In this document: in pieces, positions 847-3,071 of the stretch | Layout: the number at the start of each line of letters is the position of its first letter | Position numbering within the stretch: position 1 is the first letter of the stretch | DNA from: an uncultured Anaerolineales bacterium | Lineage (GTDB): Bacteria > Chloroflexota > Anaerolineae > Anaerolineales > UBA11657 | DNA length: 5,351 nucleotides | Assembly: GCA_913031335.1 (NCBI GenBank) | Contig: CAJWGI010000116.1 | Location: 1 to 5,351, forward strand | Direction: 5' to 3' | Notes under the pieces: model-generated | The model's database searches: none | Seen by the model: the letters and a program-made list of their open reading frames with translations, nothing else | What the model was told of the DNA's origin: nothing | Made by a program: the position numbers and the translations under genes

Positions 847-877
847 AAAAAGCCGCCAGACAAAGGTCTGGCGGCTT
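847..877 (-). terminator. Intrinsic terminator in the argC leader (attenuator, arms 3:4)
   Basis: Read on the minus strand, AAGCCGCCAGAC (877-866) pairs perfectly with GTCTGGCGGCTT (861-850) around a CTTT loop, a 12-bp GC-rich stem. Five T residues (851-847) follow, overlapping the stem end. It lies between the promoter and the argC start, only 17 bases before the ATG, so it would stop transcription before the gene. That position identifies it as an attenuator rather than an end-of-gene terminator. On the plus strand no U-run follows the stem, so it is directional. Confidence 0.88.
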
Positions 878-939
878 GTGCGCGTGCTGTGGCTGTTCGC
901 GCTACTCAGGCAAGGTCATGCGCCAGACCCGGGGTCCGG
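847..939 (-). promoter_or_regulatory. Mutually exclusive attenuator structures (1:2, 2:3, 3:4) for argC
   Basis: Four segments in transcript order can pair alternatively. Segment 1 is CCGGACC (939-933). Segment 2 is GGTCTGGCG (929-921). Segment 3 is CGCCAGACC (873-865), inside the terminator 5' arm. Segment 4 is the terminator 3' arm (861-850). Segments 1 and 2 form a 7-bp hairpin (one G-U pair, 3-nt loop). Segments 2 and 3 form a perfect 9-bp antiterminator, and 3 with 4 form the terminator. Segments 2 and 4 share GTCTGGCG, the direct repeat expected of an attenuator. Segments 1 and 2 lie inside the Arg-rich leader peptide. A ribosome stalled at Arg11/Arg12 (950-945) should mask segment 1 and free segment 2 to disarm the terminator. 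A ribosome that reaches the stop codon should cover part of segment 2 or leave 1:2 to form, allowing termination. Pairings are seen in the sequence; the mechanism is inferred by analogy with trp/his/leu leaders. Confidence 0.82.
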
Positions 940-980
940 TGGGAACGACGAGCGCGGCGACGACCGTGAGCAGCAATCAT
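906..980 (-). CDS. Arginine-rich leader peptide of the argC attenuator (24 aa)
   Basis: A short minus-strand ORF, ATG at 980-978 and TGA at 908-906, encodes 24 residues beginning MIAAHGRRRARRSHR and ending LAHDLA. Six of 24 residues are Arg: 7-9 (CGT CGC CGC), 11-12 (CGT CGT) and 15 (CGG). It sits between a good promoter and the terminator in front of argC, an arginine biosynthesis gene. The match between encoded residue and pathway product is the classic signature of a ribosome-mediated attenuation leader. AGG (988-986) lies five bases upstream. If transcription starts about seven bases past the -10 box (around 984-983), however, the mRNA would be nearly leaderless. An in-frame ATG at 992-990 overlaps the -10 box and is a less likely start. 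The peptide probably has no function beyond its translation. Confidence 0.8.
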   Translation of the reverse strand: MIAAHGRRRARRSHRTPGLAHDLA

Positions 981-1069: not shown

Positions 1070-1795
1070 GTGAGCGCATTTTTTTCCCCGAACTTTCCCG
1101 GGCAGCCGCTGCAACTGCTGTCGGCGCAGCACCTGTGGCCGCTGGCAGCGCTGCTGTTTCTACTCGGCGTGACGTCGATGGTCTTTCGCGGGCAGCGCGC
1201 GCCCGCTGCGCGACGCCGGGTGCGTCTCGGCCTCGGCGTGGCCATGATAGCCATCGAGCTTTCGTGGCACGCGTGGGCGCTGCGCGTGGGCGTCTGGCAC
1301 GTGAACTACGCGCTACCGCTGCACGTGTGCAGCCTGGCCGCGCTGCTCGCCATCGTGATGTTGCTTGCGCGCAGCCGCCCGCTTTTCGAGCTGCTTTATT
1401 TCTGGGCGTTCGCCGGCACCACGCAGGCGCTTCTCACGCCGGATTTGCGGGGCTTCAACTTCCCGCACTTTCATTACTTCTGGTATTTCAGCAGCCACGG
1501 CGCGGTGATTTTGGCGGTGGTTTGGATGCTACGCGTGGAGCGTTATCGGGTGAGCTGGCGCTCGTTCTGGCGCGCTGCGCTGATAACAAACCTGTACGCG
1601 GCGGCGGTGTACCCGCTCAATTTGCTCACCGGCGGCAACTACCTGCTGCTGATGCAAAAACCGGCCGTGCCCACCATCGCCGTCTGGCTGGGCGCGTGGC
1701 CTGGCTACATCCTCTGGCTGGAGCTGATTGGGCTTGCGCTGTTCGCGGCCTGTTATCTGCCGTTCGCTTTTGGTGACTGGCAGCGGCGGAATTGA
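1070..1795 (+). CDS. YwaF/TIGR02206-type integral membrane protein
   Basis: A 241-aa very hydrophobic protein with about seven predicted membrane segments (roughly residues 23-39, 52-70, 80-100, 104-122, 143-155, 166-185 and 204-232). It resembles the YwaF/TIGR02206 family of conserved membrane proteins. Characteristic stretches are LPLHVCSLAALLAI at 82-95, FWAFAGTTQALLTPDL at 111-126, FPHFHYFWYFSSHG at 131-144 and a late GGNYLLLMQKP at 188-198. The His and aromatic residues near the membrane faces are typical. No biochemical function is established for the family as far as I know. The start is GTG at 1070 with AAGG (1059-1062) seven bases upstream. A longer ORF in another frame (from 1012) is Arg/Ala-rich with no membrane pattern and is rejected. 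The gene is divergent from the argC leader and shares the left region's high GC. Confidence 0.85.
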   Translation: MSAFFSPNFPGQPLQLLSAQHLWPLAALLFLLGVTSMVFRGQRAPAARRRVRLGLGVAMIAIELSWHAWALRVGVWHVNYALPLHVCSLAALLAIVMLLARSRPLFELLYFWAFAGTTQALLTPDLRGFNFPHFHYFWYFSSHGAVILAVVWMLRVERYRVSWRSFWRAALITNLYAAAVYPLNLLTGGNYLLLMQKPAVPTIAVWLGAWPGYILWLELIGLALFAACYLPFAFGDWQRRN

Positions 1796-2636: not shown

Positions 2637-3071
2637 ATGTCTAAAGCCTTATTGTTTGCAGGTCTCGCGGCTCTCGGAAATGCATTGTTTGTTTACGGCC
2701 AAAGAAGAAGTAGCATTGCCAACAATTCCTTCTCGTATTTGACAAGTGCCGTTTTCATTGCGGCGGCATTTTTTGCGTTGGCAGCCGTGGCCCTGCGAAC
2801 ACAACAGGAAATTAATCTAACTGGCAATGTTTTCATCACAATTGTCGGTGGTGTAGGTCTGTTCATCACGTTGATAGGATTTTATTTTCTTTATTCTAAA
2901 TATGGCGCAGTCTATTATGGGATTTACGCCGTCCTTTCAATTATTACCACCACTATTGGCGTAGGAGTATTGATATTTCGAGAATCTTTCAATCAATATC
3001 AAATTGTAGCTTTGATACTGGCGATATTAGCTATTGTTATGTTTAGTGTCGGTGAGACATTGGCAAAATGA
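2637..3071 (+). CDS. Half-size EamA/DMT-like membrane protein (second)
   Basis: A 144-aa protein with five apparent membrane segments (about 3-20, 34-53, 64-86, 91-113 and 120-138). The YGIYAVLSIITTTIGVGVLIFRES-type stretch at 93-116 followed by a final hydrophobic helix follows the single EamA/SMR-like repeat, although the match is looser than for the gene at 1910. Dimerisation would be needed for a complete transporter. The substrate is unknown. The start is clear: AAGGAGG (2625-2631) lies five bases before the ATG. Loops 1 and 3 and the C-terminus (R23, R24, K87, K144) carry slightly more positive charge than the N-terminal side (K3, R54, R115), hinting at a topology opposite to the first half-transporter. 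The gene is much more AT-rich than the left of the window; for example 2881-2940 has 20 G/C of 60 by hand count. Confidence 0.72.
   Translation: MSKALLFAGLAALGNALFVYGQRRSSIANNSFSYLTSAVFIAAAFFALAAVALRTQQEINLTGNVFITIVGGVGLFITLIGFYFLYSKYGAVYYGIYAVLSIITTTIGVGVLIFRESFNQYQIVALILAILAIVMFSVGETLAK

Follow-up and report, generated by a model that had tools for sequence, protein, structure and literature searches.

Arginine is the textbook case of repressor control, and its genes are classically controlled by arginine via the ArgR/AhrC repressor, a DNA-binding protein. Could an argC gene be controlled by a ribosome that reads arginine codons in a leader peptide? This question is raised by contig C116 of an uncultured Anaerolineales bacterium, whose whole 5,351-base stretch is referred to here as the window and which comes from a 73% complete draft assembly totalling 1.73 Mb over 351 contigs. 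The initial annotation had recognized the parts of a ribosome-mediated attenuator upstream of argC and interpreted them as an arginine attenuator. On the minus strand, a promoter-like site, a leader ORF, a terminator and argC follow one another in this order, with the features listed below.

1018-991, minus strand: promoter-like site, sigma-70-like, with TTGACA (1018-1013), a 16-nt spacer and TAGAAT (996-991).
980-906, minus strand: leader ORF of 24 codons, MIAAHGRRRARRSHRTPGLAHDLA, plus TGA (ATG 980-978, stop 908-906).
939-933, minus strand: segment 1, CCGGACC, which can pair with GGTCTGG (929-923) in 7 bp, one of them G-U.
929-921, minus strand: segment 2, GGTCTGGCG, the 5' strand of the antiterminator, within the leader ORF, with 9 perfect pairs to 873-865.
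873-865, minus strand: segment 3, CGCCAGACC, the complement of segment 2, common to antiterminator and terminator.
877-847, minus strand: predicted intrinsic terminator, made of segments 3 and 4 and a T tract; eight of its 12 pairs are G-C.
829-2, minus strand: argC, N-acetyl-gamma-glutamyl-phosphate reductase (TIGR01850, 301.9 bits against a cut-off of 233.6), cut by the contig end.

Six of the 24 leader codons encode Arg, at positions 7, 8 and 9 (962-954), 11 and 12 (950-945) and 15 (938-936), exactly as first annotated. The proposed antiterminator of 929-921 with 873-865 was confirmed, as was the 12-bp terminator, whose stem (877-850) has a loop of 4 and whose five Ts end at 848, two of them lying inside the stem; from the terminator to the argC ATG there are 18 nt. 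Since the antiterminator (2:3, 9 bp) and the terminator (3:4, 12 bp) both use 873-865, the two are mutually exclusive. The annotated 1:2 hairpin, drawn as 939-933 with 929-921, was found as far as 923 but falls short of 921, and a helix equivalent to it was predicted in an alignment of 29 relatives. The promoter-like site has 11 of 12 consensus bases and a TG ahead of its second hexamer (one such site found in the region against 0.1 expected), which would place the predicted transcript start about 4 nt upstream of the leader ATG. The divergent neighbour of the leader encodes a TMEM164-family membrane protein (1070-1795, plus strand; PF14808, E = 2.7e-50), the frame of which starts 52 nt away from the -35 box of the promoter-like site. 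Two small membrane-protein frames were also observed on the plus strand, one matching EamA (PF00892; 1868-2326) and one that resembles it by eye (2637-3071).

To judge this arrangement against chance, we used 3000 dinucleotide shuffles of the 300 nt upstream of argC. A terminator was found in 33 of them, and a terminator together with a leader of at least three Arg codons and an antiterminator of at least 6 bp in 4. The window has five Arg in eight codons and a 9-bp antiterminator, and a leader with five in eight plus a terminator occurred in none of the 3000. The remaining ORFs in the argC upstream region were rejected as mechanical.

We consider it very likely that these elements form a leader-peptide transcription attenuator ahead of argC, which senses arginine via the supply of charged tRNA-Arg. 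When arginine is plentiful, the ribosome would complete the leader, and segment 2 would be either covered or back in a leader hairpin; with segment 2 unavailable, the 3:4 terminator would form and transcription would halt ahead of argC. When arginine is short, the ribosome would stall at the Arg codons and open the leader hairpin, and the freed segment 2 would pair with segment 3, allowing the polymerase to continue into argC. We infer the transcript start, leader translation, stalling, termination and arginine response in this scheme from the sequence.

The leader transcript, which the initial annotation had proposed to fold, is stable: the ribosome-free minimum-energy fold reached -64.6 kcal/mol (z = -4.52), and none of 200 shuffles was as stable. 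In this fold, segment 2 sits in a longer leader hairpin that extends beyond the short 1:2 helix. The short helix as the sole competitor of 2:3 pairing was rejected, as folding favours the longer hairpin. We then set the ribosomal A site at each leader codon and folded the RNA up to segment 3, an equilibrium model that shows that the geometry can work. The probability of 2:3 pairing in the window was 0.00 without a ribosome and stayed at 0.03 and 0.01 with the A site at codons 1 and 2; it rose to 0.57 at codon 3 and lay between 0.82 and 0.93 over codons 4-13, including 0.88-0.93 at Arg7-9 and Arg11-12; the non-Arg codons 4-6, 10 and 13 gave values as high as the Arg codons. From codon 14 on, Arg15 included, it was 0, where the ribosome footprint covers segment 2. 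Thus, the stall geometry first envisaged, with a ribosome at Arg11/12 leaving segment 2 free, works in the model, but it is not the only one: Arg7, 8 and 9 in the A site work too (0.88-0.91), because the ribosome breaks the long leader hairpin. With the ribosome at the stop codon, the probability was 0.00, 0.37 and 0.93 for upstream footprints of 18, 15 and 12 nt, respectively. An outright reading of this state as termination was dropped, since it rests on an assumed footprint; termination after a finished leader is predicted only where the ribosome extends back over segment 2 or departs quickly. Across 77 loci, 2:3 pairing had a mean probability of 0.31 without a ribosome, exceeding 0.5 in 24/77. 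The mean rose to 0.61 with the ribosome at the first Arg and to 0.92 at the best Arg stall, where 74/77 loci exceeded 0.5, and was 0.18 at the stop codon (14 loci over 0.5), where in 57/77 loci the covering rule sets the value to zero.

The arrangement recurs upstream of argC in related genomes. Among 60 relatives, there are seven close argC orthologues besides that of the window (53-63% identity), of which six (L002, L004, L005, L006, L007 and L008) carry an Arg-codon leader, a matching segment and a terminator, L007 with two Arg only; the upstream region of the seventh, L003, is an unreadable run of N. In the wider class, 232 of 396 genomes (our own included) carry this argC at E ≤ 1e-55. 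We examined 109 of the other 231 loci (29 loci and 80 stretches), all from the listed, better-scoring part, so that the sample leans to closer relatives. Together with L001-L008 and nine further Chloroflexota loci, these made 126, of which two were removed as duplicates and three for short or masked upstream sequence, leaving 121. Over their last 150 nt, the upstream regions of L117 and L124, from genomes of the class, are identical to those of L032 and L033, and on this basis we take the class to be Anaerolineae (Chloroflexota). An automatic test, calling for at least three Arg in 8 codons, at least six Watson-Crick antiterminator pairs and a terminator no more than 350 nt from argC, was passed by 83/121 of these usable regions compared to 0/605 shuffles. 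By our own reading of the family codes, the 83 positives are spread over about 26 families. Two loci whose leaders were mis-called by the script (L137 and L181) are still contained in these 83 and in the promoter counts below, and were dropped from the Arg-enrichment, codon and folding sets. Among the 38 regions that fail, at least L007, L008 and L035 carry the parts by eye, and L034 and L036, inspected in the same way, show no attenuator parts. The comparison of argC upstream regions proposed with the initial annotation therefore turned out in its favour: relatives retain the Arg-rich ORF, segment 2 and the terminator together, the opposite of a terminator kept without its leader parts.

We also looked at how the pairing segments vary. 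In the 29 closest sequences, the GTCTGG of segment 2 is invariant. Changes on both sides were seen at several pairs of the 3:4 stem and at 2/9 pairs of 2:3, for which 44/500 shuffles reached the pairing percentage; these 2:3 pair counts are weak because the core hardly varies in this close set. When the partner was slid by one column, 2:3 pairing dropped from 88.1% to 37-46% in the same sequences. In distant families the switch segments differ, as in L043 (ACAGTGTGTC/GACACACTGT), L196 (ATGAGGTTCG/CGAACCTCAT) and L165 (ATCGGGTCCGG/CCGGGCTCGAT). Pairing tests on loci that had been picked for pairing were set aside as biased by selection and redone with 57 loci picked only by an ATG leader with at least four Arg in 8 codons and a terminator. 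The pairing of leaders with their own terminators averaged 7.07 bp, against 5.84 bp after re-pairing, and 0 of 20,000 permutations reached this value. The same held when the set was cut to the 19 loci lacking TCTGG or to one locus per family (19 loci). Leader and terminator thus co-vary. Taken together, the attenuator parts upstream of argC are confirmed as real, and the first interpretation of them as an arginine attenuator is supported.

Arginine stands out as the leader residue. Of 93 loci in which an ATG ORF precedes a terminator, 57 had at least four Arg in eight codons compared to 2.2 expected from shuffled sequence, and the next commonest leader residues were Gly (6) and Pro (5). In leaders of loci for which the argC coding sequence was counted as well, CGC and CGT made up 121/148 Arg codons and CGG 11, compared to 293/514 and 141, respectively, in the coding sequences themselves (39 loci); argC leaders thus favour CGC/CGT and avoid CGG relative to the coding sequence. 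A preference of this kind would suit a leader that reads a single main tRNA-Arg; over the whole set of 77 leaders, AGG is frequent too (61/364 Arg codons).

The start of the leader has its own pattern. An ATG starts the leader in 79 of the 83 positives. In 43 of these 79, a promoter-like site matching at least 8/12 bases lies within 20 nt upstream of that ATG, compared to 145/1580 random positions; the -10 box ends 6-10 nt upstream of the ATG in 33 of the 43. A Shine-Dalgarno-like tetramer was found in 16/79 leaders. The promoter-like sites so close to the ATG suggest that, in these loci at least, the leader mRNA has little or no untranslated sequence at its 5' end, making it leaderless or almost leaderless. 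Leaderless initiation of a leader peptide is known from trpL of Sinorhizobium, and the Corynebacterium ilvBNC leader peptide reportedly lacks a ribosome binding site.

A second ArgC-like gene in the genome of the window (C90) shares 35% identity with this argC, and in relatives ArgC-like paralogues stand, by eye, downstream of a LysX-like gene; the upstream regions of such paralogues passed the attenuator test in 0/22 cases. Downstream of argC in L031 come genes for an amino-acid kinase, a class-III aminotransferase, a GNAT acetyltransferase and, last, argininosuccinate synthase; in L033, argC is followed by a kinase and an aminotransferase, with a GNAT gene farther along. In both, argC is at the head of an arg gene cluster, and by our own reading the kinase and aminotransferase are argB and argD.

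The attenuator would resemble ArgR/AhrC in placing arginine genes under arginine control and differs from it in that the latter is a DNA-binding protein. A search for ArgR (PF01316) found none in 61 near genomes, including our own, 73% complete one, and was positive in 9/14 controls. In the 396 class genomes, ArgR matched in 11 at E ≤ 0.001, and the four that pass the cut-off belong to one genus and cover 45 of 70 positions only. These matches are 112-aa frames (L319-L322) aligned to positions 24-68 of the 70-position ArgR DNA-binding domain. Among the four genomes, G384 and G164 also carry the attenuator (L195 and L196).

The switch is also found ahead of other genes. A covariance model, R1, built from the 29 closest attenuators matched 80/396 class genomes at E ≤ 0.01, 29/61 relatives at E ≤ 0.1, with many weak matches, and 10/221 phylum genomes at E ≤ 0.001, our own included; matches to the terminator on the opposite strand were ignored. 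We analysed 46 further places, 40 fetched from among the class and relative matches plus six phylum loci, and identified genes by tblastn against reference proteins. In 19/46 alaS lies downstream (in two at more than 700 nt), and Ala is the richest leader residue in 14 of these 19 and another residue in 5. An Ala-run leader with a GTCTGG-type segment and a terminator was observed ahead of alaS in L279-L286, L288-L292, L300, L301, L305 and L312, for example MKQSCVISAAAAAQTSGLVTSAA in L279; these leaders are likely an alanine attenuator of alanyl-tRNA synthetase. The leader was Arg-rich at 2/2 argG and 1/2 argD sites, these attenuators (L295, L296 and L298) standing where argG or argD lies apart from argC, and two of the 46 places turned out to be argC, with Arg as the richest residue in one and Pro in the other. 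All 4/4 lysine-gene sites (two lysX and two homocitrate synthase) have Lys, in KKxKK-type runs ahead of lysW-lysX or homocitrate synthase (L307, L310, L311 and L328), likely representing lysine attenuators; a small ORF ending EDWGE upstream of lysX in L307 and L311 is presumably lysW. At the two prephenate-dehydratase sites (L309 and L318), Phe is the richest residue in one and Ala in the other, and both have a leader with the run FFYAYFYGAP; the gene behind it encodes a chorismate mutase-prephenate dehydratase fusion, so that the device is likely an attenuator for Phe/Tyr. Among five LysE-like sites, Gln is richest in two; Gln-rich leaders with the same switch were seen in L324, L326 and L327 (about 1440-1620 in hit direction), from phylum genomes outside the class, ahead of a gene that we take to encode a LysE-type exporter. 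The remaining 10/46 have none of the reference genes downstream; in two cases, L287 and L293, the place runs to the end of its contig. In the examples scanned, NCBIfam confirmed alaS, argD, argG, LysX, homocitrate synthase and prephenate dehydratase with chorismate mutase.

In most cases, then, the leader is rich in the residue that matches the target gene, as attenuation predicts. We therefore lean, with modest assurance, towards the view that amino-acid metabolism in Chloroflexota is governed by a family of leaderless or nearly leaderless attenuators with a GTCTGG/CCAGAC-type switch and an exchangeable codon run: Arg for argC, argD and argG, Ala for alaS, Lys for homocitrate synthase and lysW-lysX, Phe/Tyr for prephenate dehydratase and perhaps Gln for an exporter. 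For arginine, this family would stand in for ArgR, and it would comprise the first attenuators for arginine biosynthesis, lysine biosynthesis and alanyl-tRNA synthetase.

The same comparisons bear on other explanations. The Arg-rich nascent chain could itself arrest the ribosome on sensing a free small molecule inside the tunnel, as described for the fungal arginine attenuator peptide, so that its peptide sequence and not tRNA charging would be decisive. Arginine-dependent arrest peptides exist, as an excerpt of PMC11550727 shows, and some close relatives of the window have the peptide motif RRxRRRQTxGL in common. However, the QTxGL part of this motif is encoded by the pairing segments, leader peptides differ across families apart from their Arg residues, and Ala and Lys runs occupy the same layout ahead of alaS and lysine genes; this explanation is thus quite improbable. 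Slightly less probable still is an incidental ORF, in which CGN codons merely reflect the GC-rich DNA of the hairpins and the terminator acts constitutively or marks the end of a small RNA, without control by translation. The genome region is indeed GC-rich, and the attenuator test also fired on 19/71 other argC loci, mostly in other phyla. What it picked up there was always an ORF whose last residues are FSKR. We took these ORFs as tails of the upstream gene, presumably the end of the ribosomal protein S9 gene, and the calls as misfires, and the test is not clean in other phyla because it fires on such tails. An incidental ORF is at odds with the absence of positives among the 605 shuffles of equal composition, with the Arg enrichment over shuffled sequence, with the promoter-like sites near the leader ATG and with leader residues that track the target gene. 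Least probable of all is a ligand-binding riboswitch or a protein-bound terminator/antiterminator with the ORF as a by-product: mutually exclusive hairpins also mark riboswitches, but an Rfam search of 700-1200 brought no family near its gathering score, T-box and riboswitches included, the conserved columns are the Arg-codon and pairing positions, and leader residues follow the target gene.

A ribosome-read arginine attenuator has close counterparts among known systems. Classical ribosome-mediated attenuators control the trp, his, leu, thr, ilv and phe operons. The argC attenuator is like them in having a short leader ORF rich in codons for the end product, alternative 2:3 and 3:4 hairpins and an intrinsic terminator before a biosynthetic gene, and differs in its arginine signal, its Chloroflexota host and a leader AUG predicted to coincide with the transcript start or to lie a few nt from it at most. 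Classical amino-acid operon attenuators are mentioned in an excerpt of PMC1262725, in which arginine genes of Firmicutes are under T-boxes and arginine operons of Actinobacteria showed no conserved RNA structure upstream. In T-box leaders, tRNA charging likewise controls a terminator, but the RNA binds tRNA directly without a leader peptide. In Salmonella, two consecutive Arg codons in the leader orf34/speFL of speF sense arginine by ribosome pausing, but the target is a polyamine gene, controlled through Rho-dependent termination and RNase G decay and without an intrinsic-terminator attenuator, as an excerpt of PMC6386406 describes. By inspection, the argC leader peptide lacks the SpeFL (DUF2618) core HIRRT given in that excerpt, and its downstream gene is argC, not speF. 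Leader Arg codons also sense arginine supply in rbfL of Staphylococcus aureus, where, according to an excerpt of PMC13009471, stalling prevents a biofilm regulator from being translated by blocking initiation, so that low arginine represses. The open-access literature searched contained no bacterial attenuator of arginine biosynthesis, in agreement with the remark in the initial annotation that arginine is not a standard target of attenuation. The mechanism is classical, and its arginine signal, Chloroflexota host, leaderless start and Ala and Lys sister devices appear new within that literature.

If this reading is true, the type of regulator is not fixed by the amino acid that it serves, since arginine supply would be read by ribosome stalling in this bacterial class. 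It would also explain how arg genes are controlled where ArgR is missing. Furthermore, the more than 80 natural variants, together with their Ala and Lys counterparts, offer material for studying stall geometry and the translation of leaderless leader peptides.
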